Shown: positions 1-11,660 of the stretch, piece by piece
Layout of the letters: the number at the start of each line of letters is the position of its first letter
Numbering within the stretch: position 1 is the first letter of the stretch
NCBI GenBank assembly: GCA_938045315.1
Contig: CALINM010000156.1
Coordinates: 1-11,660 of the forward strand
Direction: 5' to 3'
DNA length: 11,660 bases
Origin: an uncultured bacterium
GTDB taxonomy: Bacteria; CALINM01
Notes under the pieces: generated by a model
Told to the model about the DNA's origin: nothing
Seen by the model: only the letters and a program-made list of their open reading frames with translations
Database searches by the model: none
Translations under genes and position numbers: made by a program

Positions 1-1368
1 ATAAGAACCTGTAAGGAAATGGGAATTATATCTGTTGCTATATACTCAGAAGTGGATAAAAATGCCCATCATGTTAGAAAAGCAGATAAATCTTATCTTG
101 TTGGTCCAGGGCCATTAGAAGGTTATTTAAACTATCACAGGATTGTTGATCTTGCGAAAGAGATAGGTGCTGATGCCATTCACCCAGGATATGGTTTTTT
201 ATCTGAAAACCCAGATTTTGCAAAATATTGTGAAGAGAAAGGTATAGTATTTATTGGTCCATCAAGTGAAAATATTGCTTTGTTAGGTAATAAAATTGCT
301 TCGAGGGAATTGGCTAGAAAAATTGGGCTTCCATTGCTTCCAGGTTCTGATGAGCCCATTCAGGATACGGAAGATGCTTTAAAATTGGCCAATGATATTG
401 GTTATCCTGTAATTATAAAGGCTGCTTTTGGTGGTGGTGGACGGGGTATGAGAGTATGTTGGAATGAAAAAGAATTGAAAAATTATATAAACATATGTAT
501 TTCTGAGTCGAAGAAAGCCTTTGGAAAAGCAGATATATTTTTAGAGAAATATTTGCAGGAACCCCATCATATTGAGTTCCAGATACTTGGAGATCATTAT
601 GGGAATATAATTCATTTGGGAGAGAGGGATTGTTCTATTCAAAGAAGGCATCAAAAACTTGTAGAAATTGCCCCTTCATTAATATTAGATAAGAGATTAA
701 GAGAAGAGATTGGAGAAGCTGCAGTGAGGCTTGCTAAAGCAGTTAATTATACAAATGCTGGTACAGTTGAATTTTTAGTTGATGGGAAGGGTAATTTTTA
801 TTTTATGGAAATGAATACAAGGATTCAGGTGGAACATCCAGTTACTGAAGTTGTTACAGGAATTGATATTGTAAGAGAACAGATAAGGATTGCTGAAGGT
901 AAACCCCTATCTTACAGCCAGAATGAAATTGATTTAAGAGGATATGCAATAGAAGTTAGAATATGCGCAGAGGATCCTAAAAATAATTTTATGCCAGATT
1001 TTGGTAAAATAACATCATATAATTCCCCAGGTGGAATTGGTGTAAGATTAGATGGGGCTGTCTATCAGGGATATACTATCCCTCCCTATTATGATTCAAT
1101 GATTGTAAAATTAATTGTTTATGGAAGAACATGGGAGGAAACAGTCTCAAGATTAGGTAGGGCGCTTGATGAATATGTCATTAGGGGTATAAAAACGACA
1201 ATACCATTTTATAAAAAGATTGTAAATGACCCTGATTTCAGAAATGGAATTTTTGATACAGAATTTATAAATAAAAAACCTTATCTGCTTGAATACCAGG
1301 ATTATATTGATCCTATGGATTATGTAGTTGCTGTTGCAGCAGCAATAGCAATTAGAGAAGGGGTATAA
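1..1368 (+). CDS. accC: Biotin carboxylase subunit of a biotin-dependent carboxylase (5' truncated)
   Basis: ATP-dependent biotin carboxylase that carboxylates the biotin on the carrier protein encoded next, in an acetyl-/propionyl-CoA or pyruvate carboxylase. The reading frame is open from base 1: the residues before the first Met (IRTCKE) match the conserved biotin carboxylase start, so the gene enters from upstream and lacks about 17 residues (the usual ANRGEIA segment). Numbering from the first visible codon, the ATP-grasp glycine loop GGGGRGMR is at 144-151 and the catalytic/Mg-binding block EMNTRIQVEHPVTE at 270-283, with Glu270, Asn272, Arg274 and Glu278 intact. The C-terminus extends past the usual AccC core (DPMDYVVAVAAAIAIREGV), as in subunits of acyl-CoA or pyruvate carboxylases. 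The carboxyltransferase subunit is not in the window, so the final substrate cannot be fixed. The family call is secure; the gene symbol is generic. Confidence 0.95.
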   Translation: MRTCKEMGIISVAIYSEVDKNAHHVRKADKSYLVGPGPLEGYLNYHRIVDLAKEIGADAIHPGYGFLSENPDFAKYCEEKGIVFIGPSSENIALLGNKIASRELARKIGLPLLPGSDEPIQDTEDALKLANDIGYPVIIKAAFGGGGRGMRVCWNEKELKNYINICISESKKAFGKADIFLEKYLQEPHHIEFQILGDHYGNIIHLGERDCSIQRRHQKLVEIAPSLILDKRLREEIGEAAVRLAKAVNYTNAGTVEFLVDGKGNFYFMEMNTRIQVEHPVTEVVTGIDIVREQIRIAEGKPLSYSQNEIDLRGYAIEVRICAEDPKNNFMPDFGKITSYNSPGGIGVRLDGAVYQGYTIPPYYDSMIVKLIVYGRTWEETVSRLGRALDEYVIRGIKTTIPFYKKIVNDPDFRNGIFDTEFINKKPYLLEYQDYIDPMDYVVAVAAAIAIREGV

Positions 1369-1371
1369 TAT

Positions 1372-1848
1372 ATGGAAAAAGATAAAAAATTTAGTTATAT
1401 CAGACTAGCACCAAAGCACTATAAGCTATACTTGCATGGTAATGAATATGATATTAGAGTTATAGGTAGTGGTCAGAAACAAGGGGATGTGAAGCCCTTA
1501 TATTTAGAAATTGATGGTAGATTAGAAGAAGTTATGATTGAAATAAGGGAGTATGAAGAAGTAGTTGAAGAGGTTGCAATACCGTTTGCTACTTCAGAGC
1601 TAACTAAAGCAAAGACTAAAGTTAAAGCAGAAAGAGATGGAGATGTAACCTGTCCGATACCGGGTAAAGTTGTTGATATACTAGTAAAAGTTGGTGATCG
1701 TGTAAAAATAGGTCAACCCGTACTAATTATAGAGGCAATGAAAATGGACAATGAAATTCATGCTCCTAAGGATGGTATTGTGAGGGAAATTTATGTTGAA
1801 AAAAATGATACTGTAATGCCTGATGAAGCATTAATTTTTATTGATTAA
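1372..1848 (+). CDS. Biotin carboxyl carrier protein / biotin-attachment subunit
   Basis: Small 158-residue protein that carries the covalently bound biotin between the biotin carboxylase and carboxyltransferase active sites. The C-terminal half (about residues 85-158) is a biotinyl domain with the EAMKM motif at 121-125, making Lys124 the expected biotinylation site. The N-terminal part (about 8-65; YKLYLHGNEYDIRV, then YLEIDGRLEEVMIE) resembles the region before the biotinyl domain in pyruvate carboxylase B or oxaloacetate decarboxylase alpha type subunits. The middle is a charged linker rather than the Pro/Ala-rich linker common in AccB. It begins 3 nt after the carboxylase stop with AAGGGG 8 nt upstream of the ATG, so the two are surely cotranscribed. 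Whether it serves an acyl-CoA carboxylase or a pyruvate carboxylase is undecided. Confidence 0.93.
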   Translation: MEKDKKFSYIRLAPKHYKLYLHGNEYDIRVIGSGQKQGDVKPLYLEIDGRLEEVMIEIREYEEVVEEVAIPFATSELTKAKTKVKAERDGDVTCPIPGKVVDILVKVGDRVKIGQPVLIIEAMKMDNEIHAPKDGIVREIYVEKNDTVMPDEALIFID

Positions 1849-4133
1849 TGGAAGAAAAAATAGAAAAATTTCAGAAAAAAATTGTTTTAAATTCTCTAGA
1901 AATTAATATTGAAAAACTTTACTACAATCTTCCTTTTTGTATTGAAAATTATACAAAATTTAAGTTTATCCCCTTTGCTTTTTCAAGCGATTTATTAGAA
2001 GAAATTGAAAAGACATTTAAAAATTTAAAAGATCTAATAGAAGCCCATTGTGTTCCCCATGAAGAAAAATATTTAAATTTTGATTATTTATTTGACAATA
2101 CTCCTCTAATTGGTAGAGATGCAGAATTTGTAAAACATTTATTCTATTTTGATAATCTAATAGATAAAAGAACCATGGAAAAGTGGTTTACTTATGGAGC
2201 AAGAAACTTAAAAAAGAAAATAATTCAATTATTTGTTAAAGTTTCAAAAGAAATTAAGAATCCCTATTCTGGAGTTTTTTTATTTTTTTACATTTTGTAT
2301 ATATATTTTCTATCCATAAAAAAAGAGTTTACTGAAATTAATTTTGGGAGAGTACCAAATGATAGGAAAGATGCATATTTTTCATATTTCTTCTATTACT
2401 ATTTAAAATTGATTTTAGAAGATTTATCTGATTATGTAATGGATGAGGATTTGATTAAAAATATCTCTTTTGAATATTTTAGTCCAGCTTTTTTTTGTGA
2501 AATAAAAACCGCTTTTTTTAGAACACCATTTAATTATTGGATGATTAGTAACAAGGAATATTCAACTTTTGAAACTTTGAAAATATATGAATTGTTCAAT
2601 GAATCATCTAATTATATTGGTTTAATACAAAAAAATAATGAATTATTTGAAGAAATAAAGAAGGTCGCTATTTGTAATTTAGTGAGACAAGATATTTTCA
2701 ATCATTTATCTACTTGTTATGAGAATAAGAATTTTTACAAACAATTAGTAGGTTTCATTTATAACTTTTCTCAGTTATCAAGATTTTGTCAAGATAAAAA
2801 TTTTAGAAGTGATATTTTTAAACTTTCGAAAGAAATGATGGGTTCAAATGAAATTCAAGAAAAAGTTATATATTTGAGAGACGAAATAGAGAGAAAGATA
2901 AATAATGTAAAAGAAATCTGTAGCGATGACATTATCAGGGAGAGAGTAAAAGGGTATTTTTCTTTTAAAGCCAGTTTGGTGGCAGAAGAGTTTTTAATTG
3001 AGTTTTTTAAAGCCTTAAAAAATAGGAGAACAGAAAAAACTGTTGATATAAAAGATGAGTATGAGAATGGAAGGCTGTATTATTTCTCTCTTGATAATAT
3101 TAATGTTATAAAAGAAGGTAAAGAATTAAAATCGGCTGTAATTTATATTGATATACGAGACTTTTCTAAGAAAACCTTCAAGCTTAAAGAACAAACTATT
3201 GGAGAACTTTTAATAGATAAATTTTATAATCCAATTTTACATTATGCAGCAGATAAGACTTTATCAGAAGATATCATTCTTCACAATATTGTTGGAGATT
3301 CCATTATTTTCAGTGGTTCTATAGAAGAGATATTAAAACTTGCCGTTGTAATAAAAAAAGATAGTGAAGATTATAAAAGCGGTTTGGAACATATTATACT
3401 TGATGAAACCAAAAAAGAGCTACTCGCTTTTGACTTAGGAATTTTTATAGCCTATGGGAAAAAACCAATAATATTTAACATTCCTTCTGAGTCTGGTAAT
3501 CTTAATATCGCTTTAGGTGAATCAATTAATTTAGCAAGTAGAGGTTCTAAAAGTGATTTTAATGCTAAAAGAAGATTAGACTATATTATAGATTTTGAAA
3601 GTAGGATAAGAGGCTTACAAGTTAAGTTGCCTTTTAATCTTTATATTGTTGAAGGATATAGTCTAATAATGCCACCCACATTGGAAAATAAACTTTTACA
3701 CGTAAAAGATTTAACGGAGGAGAGAAAAATAATAAGTAATTTCTTCGAACAATTAAAATTAGATGTTTCAATAAATGAAACTGGTATTTTCTGGTCAAAA
3801 CAAAAATTTATTTATAACATTGGTGTTGGCCTAACAGAAGGAACATTTCTCGCATTTTTACAAAGAGTAAGGGTTTTTTCTAATATTAAAAAGTTTATTA
3901 TAAATGTTAAACAACTTTCTGAAATAACACAAAAAAAATATTATTTCAAAAACGAAGATATGGAATTTTGTTTTGTTAAAAATAGAAAAACTGATGAAGT
4001 TTTTTTGTTCAGAAAAGAAGGAGGAATTGTTTTTAAAGGTTATGATGAAGAGATACAGATTTGGGAGTTGATTACTAAAGAAATGCCAATTTACAATGAA
4101 TTACTAAATATTATAGAAGGAGATTCATTATGA
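1848..4133 (+). CDS. Large protein with divergent class III nucleotidyl cyclase domain
   Basis: The 761-residue protein has a recognisable class III adenylate/guanylate cyclase homology domain at about residues 425-600. Seen directly: YIDIRDFS with the first metal Asp at 435, VGDS with the second metal Asp at 484, and GESINLASR with transition-state residues Asn561 and Arg565. The usual adenine-specifying Lys (four residues before the second Asp) is Asn480, and the usual Asp/Thr/Ser (seven before Asn561) is Ile554, so the substrate is not predictable. Residues 1-420 are Lys-, Phe- and Tyr-rich and probably helical, with no domain I recognise; a hydrophobic stretch at 142-157 is too short and aromatic to call as membrane-spanning with confidence. 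About 160 residues follow the cyclase domain, also unrecognised. The ATG overlaps the preceding stop (TAATG) without its own clear ribosome site, suggesting translational coupling. The gene looks more AT-rich than its neighbours, with several runs of seven or eight T. Nucleotide-cycling activity is inference. Confidence 0.75.
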   Translation: MEEKIEKFQKKIVLNSLEINIEKLYYNLPFCIENYTKFKFIPFAFSSDLLEEIEKTFKNLKDLIEAHCVPHEEKYLNFDYLFDNTPLIGRDAEFVKHLFYFDNLIDKRTMEKWFTYGARNLKKKIIQLFVKVSKEIKNPYSGVFLFFYILYIYFLSIKKEFTEINFGRVPNDRKDAYFSYFFYYYLKLILEDLSDYVMDEDLIKNISFEYFSPAFFCEIKTAFFRTPFNYWMISNKEYSTFETLKIYELFNESSNYIGLIQKNNELFEEIKKVAICNLVRQDIFNHLSTCYENKNFYKQLVGFIYNFSQLSRFCQDKNFRSDIFKLSKEMMGSNEIQEKVIYLRDEIERKINNVKEICSDDIIRERVKGYFSFKASLVAEEFLIEFFKALKNRRTEKTVDIKDEYENGRLYYFSLDNINVIKEGKELKSAVIYIDIRDFSKKTFKLKEQTIGELLIDKFYNPILHYAADKTLSEDIILHNIVGDSIIFSGSIEEILKLAVVIKKDSEDYKSGLEHIILDETKKELLAFDLGIFIAYGKKPIIFNIPSESGNLNIALGESINLASRGSKSDFNAKRRLDYIIDFESRIRGLQVKLPFNLYIVEGYSLIMPPTLENKLLHVKDLTEERKIISNFFEQLKLDVSINETGIFWSKQKFIYNIGVGLTEGTFLAFLQRVRVFSNIKKFIINVKQLSEITQKKYYFKNEDMEFCFVKNRKTDEVFLFRKEGGIVFKGYDEEIQIWELITKEMPIYNELLNIIEGDSL

Positions 4134-4990
4134 AGATTGGATTTATTGGTTTTGGAAATTTAGGTAGCGCAATGGTTAAAAGGTTGTTATCTCAAGGATT
4201 TGAGCTACATGTATGGAATAGGACAAAAGATAAGTATAAGGGAACGGATGTGATAGTAGAAGATTCTCCAGAAACATTATTTAATTTTTGTAACATAGTT
4301 TTAGTAAATCTTTTCGATAGTAAGGCTGTGAGACATGTATTTGAGATGAAAAATGGTATTCTTTCAGGGAATTTAAAAGAAAAGATTATTTTAGATACCA
4401 CAACAAATAGTCATAAGGATGTTATAGAATTTCATAATTTAGTGAAGGAAAAGGGCGGGTATTATTTAGAAGCACCTGTTCTTGGCAGCGTCACTCCTGC
4501 ATTACAGGGAAAATTAACTTTTCTTATTAGTGGCAATAGAGATGCTTATCAAAAGGTAGAATTTTTATTACAAATTATGGGATCCAGTATATTTTACTTA
4601 GAAGAGCCGGGGTTAGCTTCTAAGATGAAGTTAATTAATAATCTACTATTAGGTGTTTTTATGGCAGGAATTTCTGAAAGTTTAGTTTTTGCACAGAAAT
4701 GTGGGATCCATCTTCAAAAGGCTATAGATATATTAATGTCTGGTGCAGGAAATTCAATGGTATTAAATGCAAAAAAAGATAAAATATTAAACGATGATTA
4801 TTCTCCCCATTTTTCATCAGCTTTAATATATAAAGATTTAAATTATTTACAAAATCTTGCTTATGAATTGAAACTTCCCCTTTTTACTGCCAGTTGTGTA
4901 AAGGAATTATATGGATTAATAAATACTAAAAAGGCAGAAGATTTAGATTTTTGTTATTTATTTAAGTTTTTAGAGGGAATGTATTTATAA
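4130..4990 (+). CDS. NAD(P)-dependent beta-hydroxyacid dehydrogenase family oxidoreductase
   Basis: Enzyme of the 3-hydroxyisobutyrate dehydrogenase family (286 residues, usual length), which reversibly oxidises short beta- or gamma-hydroxyacids or reduces their aldehydes. The Rossmann loop GFGNLG is at 7-12, and the NRT at 30-32 after the second strand is the pattern of NADP-preferring members. The substrate-loop motif EAPVLGS (114-120) followed by TPA resembles the glyoxylate/succinic semialdehyde reductase branch more than the SGG of true 3-hydroxyisobutyrate dehydrogenases. The catalytic KLINN motif at 167-171 is intact (Lys167, Asn171). The start overlaps the upstream stop as ATGA and has AAGGAG 7 nt upstream. 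Position behind the carboxylase genes suggests a role in short-chain acid metabolism, but the substrate is not established. The 3' end precedes a 48-nt gap and may end the transcription unit. Confidence 0.85.
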   Translation: MKIGFIGFGNLGSAMVKRLLSQGFELHVWNRTKDKYKGTDVIVEDSPETLFNFCNIVLVNLFDSKAVRHVFEMKNGILSGNLKEKIILDTTTNSHKDVIEFHNLVKEKGGYYLEAPVLGSVTPALQGKLTFLISGNRDAYQKVEFLLQIMGSSIFYLEEPGLASKMKLINNLLLGVFMAGISESLVFAQKCGIHLQKAIDILMSGAGNSMVLNAKKDKILNDDYSPHFSSALIYKDLNYLQNLAYELKLPLFTASCVKELYGLINTKKAEDLDFCYLFKFLEGMYL

Positions 4991-5001
4991 AACCTAAGAA
5001 C

Positions 5002-5028
5002 TTGACTTTATTTTTACTTTGAAATAAT
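5002..5028 (+). promoter_or_regulatory. Candidate sigma-70-type promoter before the roadblock-ftsY unit
   Basis: TTGACT at 5002-5007 matches the -35 consensus at five of six bases, and AATAAT at 5023-5028 matches the -10 consensus at five of six, with a short 15-nt spacer. It lies in the 48-nt gap after the dehydrogenase gene. Transcription would start only a few bases before the ATG at 5039. In DNA this AT-rich, -10-like hexamers are common, so this is a candidate only. Confidence 0.4.
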
Positions 5029-5038
5029 CTAAGCTACT

Positions 5039-5386
5039 ATGTCTTTTGAAAGTGTTTTAAAAAATTTGGTTCTTAATATGCACGCTAAAGGGGCAATTAT
5101 GCTCGATTGGGAAGGTGAAAGTGTAGCTCATTATGGCATAATTGATGAATATGATTTAAAGGTTATAGGTGCTTATCAGGTTATTATACACAATTTTTTG
5201 AAGAATATATCCCTCCAAGAGCATATAAATTTTTTTCAAATTAAGTATGAAAAAATGGTTGCTCAATTTATGCCTATAACAAAGGATTATTTTGTAATGC
5301 TGATTTTTGACAATAAAGAGATAGCTTCTAAAGCATTATATAATCTCGAAAAGGTTGCATGTGATTTTCACAGGAAGATAGGGTGA
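5039..5386 (+). CDS. Roadblock/LC7 (MglB-like) domain protein
   Basis: The 115-residue protein consists of a single roadblock/LC7 domain. The N-terminal helix followed by GAIMLDWEGESVAHYG (about 18-33) is the typical opening of MglB-like proteins, and the second half ends in the expected strand-helix pattern (DYFVMLIFDNKEIASKALYNLEKVA). Family members dimerise and often act as regulators or GTPase-activating partners of small Ras-like GTPases such as MglA. No MglA-type GTPase is encoded in this window; the adjacent GTPase is FtsY, whose start overlaps this stop. The ATG at 5039 is the first possible start after an in-frame stop at 5030-5032 and gives the family-typical N-terminus, but has no Shine-Dalgarno sequence. 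The domain call is firm; the cellular role is unknown. Confidence 0.85.
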   Translation: MSFESVLKNLVLNMHAKGAIMLDWEGESVAHYGIIDEYDLKVIGAYQVIIHNFLKNISLQEHINFFQIKYEKMVAQFMPITKDYFVMLIFDNKEIASKALYNLEKVACDFHRKIG

Positions 5387-6279
5387 TGTTTTTTAAAAAA
5401 ATCAAGGAAAGTCTTTCCAAAACACATGAAAAACTTGTTAATGGTTTAAATCAGATTTTAGGAAAGTCAGTGATTGATGATGTAGTCTGGGAAGAATTAG
5501 AAACATTACTTATAACATCTGATGTTGGTATAGAAACTTCCTCGACAATAATAAAAAATTTAAGGAAACAAAATTTTAAAGATACGGCATCTTTAAAAAA
5601 AGGATTAATAGATGAGATAACAAAACTGCTTGTTCCCTACTCTCAAACTATTGATTTTAATAGAAATAAACCTTTTGTAATTATGGTGGTAGGGGTTAAT
5701 GGTGTTGGGAAAACTACTACAATTGCAAAGTTAGCTAAGTATTTTGTAGATAAAAATAAGAAGGTCGTTTTAGGAGCTGCTGATACATTCAGAGCAGCAG
5801 CAATAGAACAGTTAGAAATATGGGCAAAAAGATTGGGAGTAGATATTGTAAAACAAAAAGAAAATGCTGATCCAGCAGCAGTTGCGTATGATAGTTTGCA
5901 GTATACTAAAGCAAAGGATTATGATGTTCTGATAATTGATACAGCTGGAAGGCTTCATACTAAATCAAATCTAATGGAAGAATTGAAAAAAATAAAAAGA
6001 GTGCTACAAAAGGTATCGATGGATTATCCTGATGAGACATTGCTAATCCTTGATGCCACTTTGGGTCAGAATTCAATTAATCAGGCAAAAGTTTTTACAG
6101 AGAGCATTAATGCTACAGGTATAATTATGACAAAGCTTGATGGTACTGCAAAGGGTGGAGTACTTATAAATGTTGTTACCTCACTGAGAATACCAGTTTA
6201 TTTCGTTGGAGTAGGTGAAGGTATAGATGATCTAGAAATTTTTGATGCAAGATCTTTTGCAGAAGGATTGTTTGAATGA
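5386..6279 (+). CDS. ftsY: Signal recognition particle receptor FtsY
   Basis: SRP-family GTPase that docks signal recognition particle-ribosome complexes at the membrane for cotranslational insertion of proteins. The N domain (about 1-90) begins MFFKKIKESLSKTHEKL, as in other FtsY proteins. The NG GTPase domain shows the P-loop GVNGVGKT at 103-110, DTFRAAAIEQL, DTAGRLHTKSNLMEEL, TKLDGTAKGG and the FtsY-type ending GVGEGIDDLEIFDARSFAEGLF. At 297 residues it lacks the long acidic A domain of the E. coli protein, as many compact bacterial FtsY proteins do. I chose the ATG at 5386, which overlaps the roadblock stop by one base (TGATG); a GTG immediately before it at 5383 is the alternative. AGGA at 5372-5375 supplies a ribosome site. 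It is probably cotranslated with its neighbours on both sides. Confidence 0.96.
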   Translation: MFFKKIKESLSKTHEKLVNGLNQILGKSVIDDVVWEELETLLITSDVGIETSSTIIKNLRKQNFKDTASLKKGLIDEITKLLVPYSQTIDFNRNKPFVIMVVGVNGVGKTTTIAKLAKYFVDKNKKVVLGAADTFRAAAIEQLEIWAKRLGVDIVKQKENADPAAVAYDSLQYTKAKDYDVLIIDTAGRLHTKSNLMEELKKIKRVLQKVSMDYPDETLLILDATLGQNSINQAKVFTESINATGIIMTKLDGTAKGGVLINVVTSLRIPVYFVGVGEGIDDLEIFDARSFAEGLFE

Positions 6280-6980
6280 ACCATAACTTTGAAAACCATA
6301 ATAATTTTAATGAATTACATGATTTTAAAGAGAAACAATATATAATTGATGCTATTAAAGTTGGAGATACGTGGCGCATTTTTCGCGTATTGTCAGAGAT
6401 GGTAGAAGGCTTCGAAAAATTAAGCCAAATTGTTCCTGCTGTAACTGTTTTTGGTTCAGCCAGAGCAAAACCTAACAGCAAATACTATAAGATGGCAAGG
6501 TATATAACTGGATGTTTAGTAGAATATGGAGTTTCTACATTAACCGGAGGTGGTCCCGGAATAATGGAAGCAGCTAATAGGGGTGCTTTTGAAAAGGGGG
6601 GTAAATCAGTTGGGTGCAATATAGAGCTTCCTTTAGAACAAAAACCAAATAGATATTGTAATATTCTTGTCAGTTTTCATTATTTTTTTATAAGAAAATT
6701 GATGTTAGTAAAATACTCGTCAGGTTTTATAATTTTTCCTGGTGGCTTTGGTACCCTTGATGAGGTTTTCGAAGCATTAACATTAATTCAGACAAAGAAA
6801 ATAAGGCCATTCCCACTTATTCTGGTTGGTTCTGAATACTGGCACGGTTTCTATGATTGGATAAAAAGGAATACACTTAAAAAAAGGTTAATAGATAAAG
6901 AAGATTTAAACTTAATAGAGATTATTGATACACCAGAAGAAGTAATAACAAAAATTCTTAGATTTCTTAAGCTCAAGTAA
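6276..6980 (+). CDS. LOG-family (TIGR00730-type) Rossmann-fold protein
   Basis: Member of the LOG/lysine-decarboxylase-like family. Characterised relatives are phosphoribohydrolases that release the base from nucleoside 5'-monophosphates (cytokinin-activating LOG in plants, nucleotide nucleosidases in bacteria). Visible hallmarks are GGGPGIMEAANRGA beginning at residue 91 and the signature PGGFGTLDE at 155-163. The N-terminal 45 residues, partly Asn/His-rich, then GDTWRIFRVLSEMVEGFEKL, fit the longer bacterial branch in which a helical segment precedes the core. Length (234) is normal for that branch. The ATG overlaps the ftsY stop as ATGA, with AGAAGGA 8 nt upstream. The old 'lysine decarboxylase' label should not be used. 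Substrate is inferred from the family only; no link to FtsY is known to me. Confidence 0.88.
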   Translation: MNHNFENHNNFNELHDFKEKQYIIDAIKVGDTWRIFRVLSEMVEGFEKLSQIVPAVTVFGSARAKPNSKYYKMARYITGCLVEYGVSTLTGGGPGIMEAANRGAFEKGGKSVGCNIELPLEQKPNRYCNILVSFHYFFIRKLMLVKYSSGFIIFPGGFGTLDEVFEALTLIQTKKIRPFPLILVGSEYWHGFYDWIKRNTLKKRLIDKEDLNLIEIIDTPEEVITKILRFLKLK

Positions 6981-6998
6981 TTTATATTTTTCTTTTGC

Positions 6999-7027
6999 TT
7001 GTAAAACATAAATATCAATGGTATCAT
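6999..7027 (+). promoter_or_regulatory. Candidate sigma-70-type promoter before the radical SAM-lepA-lepB-lysS unit
   Basis: TTGTAA at 6999-7004 (four of six to the -35 consensus), a 17-nt spacer and TATCAT at 7022-7027 (five of six to the -10 consensus). It lies just after the LOG-family gene and 9 nt before the ATG at 7037, so the transcript would have almost no leader. It favours the ATG at 7037 over the TTG at 6995 as the start of the next gene. The AT-rich background lowers confidence. Confidence 0.4.
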
Positions 7028-7036
7028 AAAAAACTA

Positions 7037-7954
7037 ATGTCTAATTGGGTTAGTTATTTTCTTAAGTATTATTTTGAGACTAAAATATTTAAAAGAAAAA
7101 AACCAATATTAGCGGGTTATAAAATAACTTATAATTGCAATTTACGCTGTATTCACTGTCCTTACTGGAGAAAAGTGCATTTTGAACCTAAGTATCAAGA
7201 AGCTTTAGAAACAGTAAAAAAAATGTATCAAATGGGGGCAAGAATTTTAATTTTTGAAGGTGGAGAACCACTTTTGTGGAAGGATAAGGAATTAAATAAA
7301 GATATTATCGATCTTATTAAGGAGGCTAAAAAGTTTTATTTTAGTGTAGGTATTACCACAAATGGTACTTTAAAACTAAACGATATACCATCCGATGTTA
7401 TATGGGTCAGCTTTGATGGATTAAAAGAAACATATAATAAAGTTCGTGGAGTTTTTTTTGATAGGGTTATAAAAAATATTAAAGAAAGTAATCATGAAAA
7501 TCTTTATGTTAATATTACTATCAATAAAATTAATGCTTTTGAAATTGAAGAAATGGTGAAGTTTATCTCGCCGTTAGTTAAGGGTATAACCATTCAGTTT
7601 CATTATCCCTACGGCATAGAAGAAGATAAAGACCTTTTTGTACCCATTGAAGAAAGAAAAATAATAATAGATAAGTTGATAAATTTAAAAAAGAAAGGAT
7701 ATCCCCTGGCTGATTCTTATGTTTGTCTTCAATCTATGAAGAATAATAGCTGGAAATGTCATGATTGGATGCTTGTAAATGCTAATCCTGATGGTAGCAT
7801 TACTCAGGGATGTTATTTAAAAAGTAGAGGAAAAATTTTTTGTAATTTATGTGGATTTGCTGCACATGTGGAGATTTCAAAAGCTTTTGATCTTTCTCTA
7901 TCTTGCATCAATGTGGGAAGAAAGATTTTTAAATACAGGCAGATACCAGCATGA
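7037..7954 (+). CDS. Radical SAM protein with cysteine-rich C-terminal region
   Basis: Radical SAM enzyme of unknown substrate. Numbered from the ATG at 7037 (305 residues), the CX3CX2C motif that binds the SAM [4Fe-4S] cluster is Cys34, Cys38, Cys41 (CNLRCIHC), followed by the SAM-binding EGGEPL motif and TTNGT. The C-terminal part has six further cysteines (230, 241, 259, 269, 272, 290), with a PDG before Cys259; this resembles a SPASM or Twitch auxiliary-cluster region, but the usual CX5CX3C element is absent. SPASM-type enzymes often modify peptides, yet no small precursor peptide gene is visible nearby. A TTG at 6995 in the same frame would add 14 residues; neither start has a Shine-Dalgarno sequence, and I prefer ATG 7037 because of the promoter-like sequence between them. 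Its stop overlaps the lepA start (ATGA). Confidence 0.85.
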
Positions 7955-9750
7955 ATAGGGAGTTAATTAGAAATTTTTCCATAATTGCTCATATAGATCA
8001 TGGTAAGTCAACATTGGCTGATAGGCTTTTAGAATTTACTGGAGCAGTTAGTAAAAGAGAGATGCAAGAACAGTATCTTGATAAAATGGATTTAGAGAGA
8101 GAAAGGGGTATTACAATAAAAGCTCAAACTGTTAGATTAACTTATGAAGCCAATGATGGTTTAACCTATATTCTTAACCTTATTGATACACCAGGGCATG
8201 TAGATTTTAGCTATGAAGTTTCAAGAAGCTTAGCAGCGTGTGAGGGAGCAATTTTAGTTGTCGATGCATCACAAGGGGTTGAGGCACAAACCCTTGCAAA
8301 TGTGTATTTAGCTTTAGAACATAATCTTGAGATTCTACCAGTTATAAACAAGATAGATTTGCCTTCAGCCGAACCTGAAAGAATTAAAAAAGAGATAGAG
8401 GATATAATTGGACTTCCAGCTGACGAGGCTGTTTTGATAAGTGCCAAGGAAGGAATAGGAATTGATAAACTTCTTGAAGAAATTGTAATGAAAATACCAC
8501 CACCAAGGGGATTAAAAGATAACCCCCTCAAGGCTTTAGTCTTTGATAGCTGGTATGATCCCTATCAAGGTGTAATTACTTTAGTTAGGGTTATAGATGG
8601 TGTGATAAAAAGGGGTATGAAAATATTCTTCATCCATACCCAAAGAACTTATCAGGTAGAAAAAATTGGGGTATTTACCCCTCATCCTGTTGAAGTTGAT
8701 GAATTAAATGTTGGTGAAGTTGGCTTTCTAATAACTGGTATGAAAAACATAAGAGATTGTCGCATTGGCGATACTATAACAGAGGTTGATAGAAGGACTG
8801 AAAATCCTTTCCCCGGATTTAAGGTTATGAAGCCCATGGTTTTTTGTGGATTGTATCCCACTGTAAGTGATGACTTTGAAGAATTGAGAGATGCTCTTTT
8901 AAAGCTCAGCCTTAACGATTCATCGTTCGTATTCGAACCAGAAACCTCTATTGCTCTTGGTTTTGGATTTAGATGTGGTTTTTTGGGGCTTTTACATATG
9001 GAAATTATTCAAGAAAGGTTGGAGAGAGAATATGGTTTGAGCTTGATCACCACAGCTCCAACAGTTAAATATAGAGTAATAACTACTAAAAATGAGGTGT
9101 TGGAAGTAGATAACCCTAATAAGTTTCCTGACGCCCAATATATTGAAAGAATAGAAGAACCTTATATTTTGGCTCATATTCATACCCCTGAAGAATATTT
9201 GGGGAATGTATTAACTTTATGCCAGGAAAAAAGGGGTGTGCAGAAAGATATTAAATTTATCACAAAAGATAGGGTCATTGTGGAATATGAACTCCCCTTG
9301 AACGAGATTGTTCTTGATTTTTATGATAGATTAAAATCTGTAAGTAAAGGATATGCATCATTAGATTATGAATTTCTTGATTTTAAACCTTCAGATTTAA
9401 TAAAATTGAATATTCTTGTTAATGGAGAGATTGTTGATGCTCTATCTGTTATTGTACACAGGGATAAAGCTTATCAAAGAGGGAGGCAACTGGTAGAAAA
9501 ATTGAAGGAACTTATTCCTAAACAACTCTTTGAAGTTGTTATTCAGGCAGCTATTGGTAATAAAATAATTTCAAGAGAAAGTATAAAACCTCTAAAAAAG
9601 AATGTTTTAGCTAAATGCTATGGTGGAGATATCACAAGAAAAAGAAAATTGCTTGAAAAACAAAAGGAAGGAAAAAAAAGAATGAAACAGGTGGGGAATG
9701 TGGAGATACCTCAAGAAGCCTTTTTAGCTGTTTTAAAAGTTGATAAATAG
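7951..9750 (+). CDS. lepA: Elongation factor 4 (LepA), back-translocating GTPase
   Basis: Ribosome-binding translational GTPase LepA/EF-4, reported to back-translocate stalled ribosomes or assist translation and ribosome assembly under stress. Full length at 599 residues. GTPase motifs in order: G1 AHIDHGKS at 13-20, G2 RERGIT at 50-55, G3 DTPGH at 79-83 (catalytic His83) and G4 NKID at 133-136. The LepA-specific C-terminal domain is present, including the basic region [22 protein letters not shown] and the ending [16 protein letters not shown]. The ATG overlaps the radical SAM stop by four bases and lacks a strong ribosome site, so translation is probably coupled to that gene. lepB follows after 9 nt, the classical lepA-lepB arrangement. 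Confidence 0.98.
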
Positions 9751-9754
9751 GAGG
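9749..9754 (+). promoter_or_regulatory. Strong ribosome binding site setting the lepB TTG start
   Basis: A full AGGAGG, overlapping the lepA stop codon, ends 5 nt before the TTG at 9760. The next in-frame ATG is the Met of the catalytic SGSM motif, which is far too late, so this site fixes the TTG as the lepB start. Confidence 0.8.
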
Positions 9755-9759
9755 ATATT

Positions 9760-10422
9760 TTGAAAAATAATGATAAAAATACAAAATCACCTCAAAGAAA
9801 AGGTAAATTAAGAGAAACTATCGAATCTATTTTAGTAGCCCTTTTTTTTGCACTCCTTATTAGGACTTTTGTGGTTCAGGCTTTTAAAATACCATCAGGA
9901 TCTATGGAGCCTACATTATTAGTGGGAGACTATCTCTTGGTTAATAAATTTATTTATGGTTATAAATTCCCTTTAATTAACAAGAGGGTTCTCTCCTTTA
10001 AAAAACCAGACCGAGGTGATGTGGTAGTTTTTAAGTATCCCATAGATCCAGATAAGGATTTTATAAAAAGAGTGGTTGCTATTGAAGGTGATACTGTTGA
10101 GATAAAAGATAAAAAACTATATATAAACAATAAATTATTTGAGACACCACAGGCTGTTTATAGAGATCCTGTTATAATTCCAAAAGAATTAGCACCGCGA
10201 GATAATTATGGGCCTATTAAGGTTCCTAAGAATAGCCTTTTTGTAATGGGTGATAATAGAGATTCAAGTTTAGATAGCAGGTTTTGGGGATTTGTTCATT
10301 TAAATGATTTAAAAGGAAAGGCATTGATAATTTACTGGTCCTTTGATTCTAATAATGAATATCCATTATATAGATTGGATAAGAAAATACGCTTTTCAAG
10401 GATCGGAAAACTCATTTATTAG
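9760..10422 (+). CDS. lepB: Signal peptidase I
   Basis: Membrane-bound type I signal peptidase that removes signal peptides from exported proteins on the outer face of the cytoplasmic membrane. A basic N-terminus (residues 1-19) precedes a single membrane segment (about 21-41), giving the one-span topology. Catalytic residues are visible: Ser48 in SGSMEPT and Lys103 in DFIKRVVAIEGD, with the conserved MGDNRDSS box at 163-170 and the SRFWGFV segment after it. Length (220) is typical for compact signal peptidases. The start is TTG, supported by a perfect AGGAGG 5 nt upstream and by the absence of any earlier ATG. It lies between lepA and lysS in one apparent transcription unit. Confidence 0.97.
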   Translation: MKNNDKNTKSPQRKGKLRETIESILVALFFALLIRTFVVQAFKIPSGSMEPTLLVGDYLLVNKFIYGYKFPLINKRVLSFKKPDRGDVVVFKYPIDPDKDFIKRVVAIEGDTVEIKDKKLYINNKLFETPQAVYRDPVIIPKELAPRDNYGPIKVPKNSLFVMGDNRDSSLDSRFWGFVHLNDLKGKALIIYWSFDSNNEYPLYRLDKKIRFSRIGKLIY

Positions 10423-10431
10423 GGAGAAAAC

Positions 10432-11660
10432 ATGGAAGAAAATATTTTGATTGAGGCTAAAAAAAACAAATTAAAAAGAATGATTCAATTAGGAATAAAT
10501 CCATATCCAAATGATTTTAAACCAGACAGTAATTCTGAAACTTTGAAAAAATTGTATATAGAAAAACCTAGAGAAGAAATGCACAATCCCTTTGATTATC
10601 CAGAATTTAAATTAGCTGGGCGTGTAATGAGTATTAGAAGTTTCGGAAAATCAACATTTGCGCATATAAAAGATGTATCTGGTAAAATTCAAATTTTTTT
10701 TCAGAAAGCAACGTTGGGTGAAAATTATGATATGATTTTAGAGTTATTAGATGTTGGTGATATAATAGGTGTTAAAGGAAGACCTTTCAAAACAAAAACA
10801 GGCGAACTTACTATAAATGTTGAGTTTTGTAAGGTTCTTTGTAAATCTTTAAGGCCCCTTCCAGAGAAATGGCATGGATTAGTTGATATAGAAACCAGAT
10901 ACAGACAAAGGTATCTTGATTTTATAGTAAATGATGAGGTTAAAAAAGTTTTTGAAAAAAGAATTAAAATGATTAAATTGATAAGAAACTTTTTCGATGA
11001 TAGAGGATTCCTTGAAGTTGAGACGCCAATGATGCACCAGATTGTTGGAGGTGCTACTGCAAAGCCATTTAAGACATATCATAATGCCCTTAATATGGAG
11101 TTATATTTAAGAATTGCTCCTGAGCTTTATTTGAAAAGACTTGTTGTAGGTGGCTTTGAAAGAGTATATGAAATTAACAGAAATTTCAGGAATGAGGGTA
11201 TTTCAACCCAACATAATCCTGAATTTACAATGTTAGAATTTTATATGGCTTATGCTACATATGAAGATTTAATGTCATTGACAGAAGAGTTATTTTCACA
11301 CTTAGCTAATGAACTTTGTGGCAATACTAAAATAAGTCATGGGGATAATATCATTGACCTCACTCCACCTTTTAAAAGATATACAATGGAGGAAGCATTA
11401 AAAGAATTGGGTGGTATAGATATTAACGAACTAAAAGATGTTAACGATTGTAAAAAAATTGCAAGATCATTGAATATTGAATTAAAAGGTTATGAAGGAA
11501 AGGGAAAAATAATTACTGAAATTTTTGAAAAAACTGTAGAAGATAAACTAATTCAGCCAACTTTTATTACCCATTTTCCAGTAGATGTTTCACCCCTCGC
11601 TAGAAGGAACTCAAAAAATCCTGAAGTTACAGATAGGTTTGAGTTGTATATAGCAGGTAG
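10432..11660 (+). CDS. lysS: Lysyl-tRNA synthetase, class II (3' truncated)
   Basis: Class II lysyl-tRNA synthetase, which charges tRNA-Lys with lysine in the cytoplasm. The open frame runs off the end of the window after 409 full codons; the usual length is about 490-505, so roughly the last 80-90 residues, including class II motif 3, are missing. The N-terminal OB-fold anticodon-binding domain spans about 58-150 and ends in the LysRS hallmark [11 protein letters not shown] followed by RYRQRYLD. Class II motif 1 lies around [10 protein letters not shown] (Pro199), and motif 2 is RNFRNEG (250-256, Arg253). The visible end, VSPLARR followed by PEVTDRFEL, is also LysRS-specific. The ATG has AGGGAG 5 nt upstream, directly after the lepB stop. 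It is not an EpmA/GenX paralogue, because the anticodon-binding domain is present. Confidence 0.97.

Follow-up and report, generated by a model that had tools for sequence, protein, structure and literature searches.

The window, the whole stretch of DNA analyzed here (11,660 nt), carries eleven genes, all on one strand. Every assigned gene across positions 1-11660 lies on the + strand, and GC skew is positive throughout. The genes encode, in order, a biotin carboxylase, a biotin carboxyl carrier protein (BCCP), a cyclase-like protein, a reductase, a 115-aa protein, FtsY, a LOG-family protein, a radical SAM protein, LepA, signal peptidase and LysS. The cyclase-like gene is the third and sits within a tight run:

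1..1368, +, biotin carboxylase subunit, assigned by profile matches, with its 5′ end outside the window
1372..1848, +, BCCP (PF00364, E 4e-19), overlapping the start of the cyclase-like gene by one base
1848..4133, +, open reading frame (ORF) of 761 aa, with a helical N-terminal region and a class III cyclase-like domain
4130..4990, +, 3-hydroxyisobutyrate-dehydrogenase-type reductase (PF03446, E 2e-33), overlapping the end of the cyclase-like gene by 4 bases

The 115-aa protein (5039-5386, +) is conserved in the congener and by eye resembles Roadblock/LC7 (MglB-like) proteins; neither Pfam nor NCBIfam gave a match for it. Downstream, separated from the cyclase-like gene by a few genes, lies a LOG/TIGR00730-type nucleotide 5′-monophosphate phosphoribohydrolase-like gene (6276-6980, +). 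Elsewhere, the same genome encodes two class III cyclases of the ordinary type (L004 and L006; ~700 and ~630 aa). Their base sites carry Lys and Thr, so the genome already has a standard way of making cyclic nucleotides.

Sequence searches gave no match to the product of ORF 1848-4133 in Pfam, NCBIfam, PADLOC or PDB, and nothing convincing in the same four for its relatives. A Pfam search of the window protein relaxed to E 10 returned neither DUF2652 nor any other match, and HMMER against PDB retrieved no cyclase with either the single sequence or a 74-row profile. The best PDB match by HMMER, a telomeric repeat-binding factor at E 0.2, was dismissed as noise. Class III cyclase sequence HMMs likewise fail to detect the family: neither the window protein nor its relatives reached the curated cutoff of PF00211 (Guanylate_cyc), and in the window's genome the PF00211 search exceeded that cutoff at two other genes and not at ORF 1848-4133. 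In the reverse direction, the family profile also retrieved a canonical class III cyclase in genome G100 over the metal-site motif with an E value of 0.006; its architecture, read by eye, is FHA-GAF-cyclase-PP2C. We found no paper describing the family in a search that covered largely open-access literature.

Structure prediction and profile alignment located the following features within the ORF. Conservation counts refer to 91 aligned family members and, for comparison, to 34 canonical class III domains read in the same way.

1848..3047, +, N-terminal ~400 aa, almost all helical in the AlphaFold model and fast-evolving (51% identity to the congener versus 86% for residues 404-567)
3117..4082, +, class III cyclase-like domain, residues ~424-745 (VIA-align 2, Foldseek, hhalign)
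3150..3152, +, Asp435, metal site 1, at the end of strand beta1 (428-436 in the model); Asp in 91/91
3285..3287, +, Asn480 in beta2 (476-482), at the position of the canonical adenine-specifying Lys; N 85 and S 6 of 91, canonical K 30/34
3297..3299, +, Asp484, metal site 2, in the beta2-beta3 turn; Asp in 91/91
3507..3509, +, Ile554 in strand 550-556, at the position of the canonical adenine-specifying Asp/Thr; V 89 and I 2 of 91, canonical T 30 and D 3 of 34
Codon at 3519, +, Glu558; E 76, D 11 and G 4 of 91, canonical D 27/34
3528..3530, +, Asn561 in helix alpha4 (558-567), the ribose-orienting/transition-state Asn; 91/91
3540..3542, +, Arg565 in helix alpha4, the transition-state Arg, followed by invariant Gly566; 91/91 each
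3549..3947, +, insertion of ~130 residues (568-700) after alpha4, absent from canonical cyclases (hhalign gain on removal)
4023..4070, +, C-terminal motif VFKGYDEEIQIWELIT (residues 726-741), aligned to canonical VKGK..VYEL by hhalign with the insertion removed

The AlphaFold model built on a 74-row alignment reached a pLDDT of 86.1 and a pTM of 0.77; a model from two sequences only (pLDDT 33) was set aside. All of the top 50 Foldseek matches in PDB were class III cyclases or proteins containing such a domain (best E 3e-6, probability 1.00). VIA-align 2 against solved class III cyclases gave Z scores of 15.6 to 17.5 over model residues 424-750, with about 160-184 residues paired at 1.8-3.2 Å in nearly all rows. 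The model places D435, N480, D484, residue 554, N561 and R565 where canonical cyclases have them, the structural aligner itself giving ranges only. Model and structural matches thus support the class III fold proposed in the initial annotation. The domain had been assigned there to 3138-3545, a segment that does fall inside the cyclase domain (residues 431-566) but covers only its first half; the real domain spans about 320 residues, not 136.

Profile-profile alignment agreed. With residues 404-761 against the 34 canonical sequences, hhalign put all motifs in register and ended at alpha4 (probability 69%, P 4.5e-5), and none of 100 column shuffles reached the real score (41.0 versus 22.8 for the best shuffle). 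The same comparison with only 6 canonical sequences was weak (P 0.007) and became clear once 34 were used. When residues 568-700 were removed, the alignment ran for 191 columns to the end of both domains (probability 94%, P 1.3e-7). Because removal lets the alignment run through, and because the structural aligner spans 424-750 while pairing only ~160-184 residues, these ~130 residues are an insertion between alpha4 and the last strands. Beyond it, Lys730 (codon at 4035) lies within FKG...VWEL and aligns with the Lys of canonical KGK; the position is K in 68 and R in 18 of the 91 family members (K/R in 86/91) and K in 28/34 canonical domains. By this alignment, Lys730 is probably the triphosphate-binding Lys. 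The N-terminal ~400 aa gave no Pfam match, in line with the earlier view that the flanks hold no recognized domain, and probably form a regulatory/sensor or assembly region.

The codons of Asp435, Asp484, Asn561 and Arg565, reported as present from the first, were confirmed, and each residue is invariant in the family; the metal aspartates are lost in 0/91 homologues. The corresponding canonical counts, out of 34, are 34 and 34 for the metal Asp residues, 30 for Lys, 33 for Thr/Asp, 33 for Asn, 32 for Arg and 28 for the KGK Lys. The substitutions at the base site, Asn480 for Lys and Ile554 for Asp/Thr, were equally borne out, and the collected homologues show that they are a family trait: only N or S occurs at 480, and only V or I at 554. 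The spacings N480-x-x-G-D484 and I554-(6)-N561-(3)-R565 are exactly canonical, leaving no gap able to hide a Lys or Asp/Thr, and with the motifs in register the canonical pair does not reappear at other positions. The Lys and Asp/Thr pair of ATP-selective class III adenylyl cyclases is therefore replaced, by N480 and I554 here and by N/S and V/I across all 91. Together, these counts indicate that the catalytic residues are conserved no less strictly than in canonical enzymes, whereas the base-selecting pair has become fixed as other residues. The GE in place of GD before the Asn motif, also singled out initially, is real (Glu558) but unremarkable, the position being variable both in the family and in canonical domains. 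Directly behind Asn561, the first residue of the stretch, the window lineage departs from the other members (NLASRGSK where they usually have NEAARGTAR) and there looks slightly more canonical. Residues 404-567 are under strong purifying selection between the window and its congener (dN 0.08, dS saturated, 86% identity).

ORF 1848-4133 is thus one member of a family of large bacterial proteins, unnamed until now, with a hidden class III cyclase domain. The sole congener compared encodes a 64% identical protein at the same operon position, and the second genus of the window's family yielded no copy in a genome that is 84% complete. A profile of residues 396-641 from the window and its congener, run against 386 genomes, picked out three unrelated ones that encode full-length relatives (E values of 1.5e-31, 1.6e-11 and 5e-10). 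A contig scan of genomes with the window protein alone found none; intermediate sequences were needed. With a five-member profile, the gene was detected in 55/243 genomes around one relative and 66/246 around another, usually once per genome, and a 33-row profile matched strongly in only five of 386 genomes drawn from across Bacteria, so the family is not universal. A named scan gave 78 loci from deltaproteobacterial metagenome-assembled genomes, Myxococcales, Archangium, Anaeromyxobacter and "Ca. Zymogenus"; overall, full-length relatives occur in Myxococcota (Archangium, Anaeromyxobacter), many deltaproteobacterial lineages, "Ca. Zymogenus" and one further lineage. Viral contigs held no relative, nor did plasmids searched with the Archangium member. 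Weak matches in two genomes (G130 and G266; open frames of 3739 and 2177 aa, E 4e-5) were kept out of the family. In a tree of the cyclase-like domain, the window and its congener stand apart on a long branch of their own. An open frame at a contig end in another lineage (L194:1441-1779, −) resembles the family's C-terminal FKGF..VWE (E 4.9e-4) and is possibly a cut-off member.

The neighbors of family genes included no operon partner common to different phyla or lineages, and no conserved cyclic-nucleotide receptor or phosphodiesterase lay beside them in the loci compared. For want of a conserved receptor among the neighbors, we propose no pathway. Some local arrangements recur. In 13 deltaproteobacterial loci (L096, L097, L098, L140 and others), a HEAT-repeat gene (~265-300 aa) lies upstream of and divergent from the family gene. 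In one deltaproteobacterial group, and in that group only, a LarE-type gene lies convergent to the family gene, with a ThiI-domain gene after it; the LarE-type assignment was made by eye, Pfam at 1e-4 giving no match.

We consider the product of ORF 1848-4133 to be, with somewhat better than even confidence, an active and probably homodimeric nucleotidyl cyclase of a new class III subfamily with a rebuilt base pocket. The fold, the invariance of the residues, the insertion and the distribution are results of the analysis; dimer, catalysis, product and regulation are inferred from them and from known class III enzymes. By analogy with class III enzymes, two chains would pair head to tail. One chain would use Asp435 and Asp484 to position two metal ions on a nucleoside triphosphate, the other would supply Asn561 and Arg565 to orient the ribose and stabilize the transition state, and Lys730 would hold the phosphates, yielding a 3′,5′-cyclic nucleotide and pyrophosphate. 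In the rebuilt pocket, Asn480 and a hydrophobic residue at 554 (Ile/Val) would take over base reading from the Lys and Asp/Thr pair, and the fast-evolving helical N terminus, perhaps with the insertion after alpha4, would set activity. With the pocket rebuilt, the product is not predictable and may not be cAMP. Asparagine can in principle read several bases, and the pyrimidine cyclases described so far rely on different residues, so no specific product can be assigned.

The class III fold is distantly related to the palms of GGDEF and Cas10 proteins, and one could imagine a different reaction on the same palm-like scaffold, such as synthesis of a cyclic dinucleotide or a linear oligonucleotide. 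We regard this as very improbable: the protein has no GGDEF motif and no Pfam GGDEF match, and GGDEF- and Cas10-type enzymes are not known to have the class III hallmarks seen here, namely Asn561/Arg565 on alpha4 and the KG motif. It is also improbable, if somewhat less so, that the protein is a nucleotide- or metal-binding sensor that keeps the cyclase fold without cyclization, akin to the binding-only use that was suggested at the outset. The long helical flanks, the altered base site and the lack of a conserved downstream receptor in the loci compared would all suit a sensor, and one that bound nucleotide tightly would also keep its catalytic residues conserved. However, the four catalytic residues and Gly566 are present in 91/91 very diverged sequences, and pseudoenzymes usually lose some; this invariance of the whole catalytic set weakens the binding-only reading.

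A more serious contender, although still unlikely in our judgment, is ordinary adenylyl or guanylyl cyclase output, with cAMP or cGMP as the product and a purine that is either bound through different residues or selected less strictly. Apart from the base site, the domain is best matched by purine cyclases in VIA-align 2, and base contacts are known to vary among class III cyclases that keep their activity, as in the Pycsar enzymes (PMC11224242) and, going by its citation in PMC4886424, in Rv1900c. Because base contacts vary among proven class III cyclases, for example the Pycsar pyrimidine cyclases (PMC11224242), the altered residues alone neither name the base nor show an unusual substrate or product. 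Yet both positions changed and were then fixed across 91 sequences (Asn/Ser and Val/Ile), a pattern that suggests not drift but a specific new pocket, and the genome already has its two canonical cyclases. One form of the active-cyclase reading we put forward only speculatively and hold to be doubtful. The family might be a dedicated second-messenger synthase whose product is neither cAMP nor cGMP but another cyclic mononucleotide (e.g., cUMP, cCMP or one with a modified base), selected by a previously undescribed Asn/Val pocket; it would operate outside phage defense islands, in a deep-branching lineage as well as in Myxococcota and deltaproteobacteria.

If the enzyme is active, bacteria carrying the family gene have an unrecognized cyclic nucleotide pathway,. 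The fixed Asn/Val pocket is also a clean experiment of nature on base choice by class III cyclases. More generally, a large family of probable signaling enzymes, mostly present as a single copy per genome, appears to be invisible to standard annotation.

Among known systems, the GGDEF diguanylate cyclases and Pycsar PycC each differ from the window protein in their defining features. The family shares with PycC the class III fold, the retained metal Asp residues and the changed base residues (PMC11224242). PycC pockets are Tyr/Asp/Arg, Phe/Arg/Gln or Phe/Lys/Phe (PMC11224242), in contrast with the Asn/Val pocket of the family; in addition, PADLOC at E 1 gave no PycC match, and the window gene has metabolic and translation genes as neighbors, with no effector gene (PycTM/PycTIR) beside it. 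Asn does read uracil in PycTIR, which is a receptor and not a cyclase (PMC11224242). The nearest published case that we found is DUF2652, a predicted class III variant that also has unusual base residues (PMC4886424). It comprises ~250-aa single-domain proteins with a Lys-Glu or Glu-Lys base pair and no catalytic Asn (PMC4886424); Rv1900c, which is cited there and lacks the Asn, is said to use both ATP and GTP. Size and residues rule out DUF2652 as the published identity of the family, as does the lack of a Pfam match, and the two are separate families. The closest likeness is to the class III cyclases themselves (PF00211; for example CyaC of Spirulina, CyaB of Pseudomonas aeruginosa, Rv1264 and the soluble guanylate cyclase beta subunit), with which the family shares the fold over residues 424-750, the two metal Asp residues, the alpha4 Asn and Arg four residues apart and the KG..VYEL end. 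From these it is set apart by Asn/Ser in place of Lys and Val/Ile in place of Asp/Thr at the base site, by the ~130-residue insertion after alpha4, by its escape from PF00211 and by its large helical N terminus.
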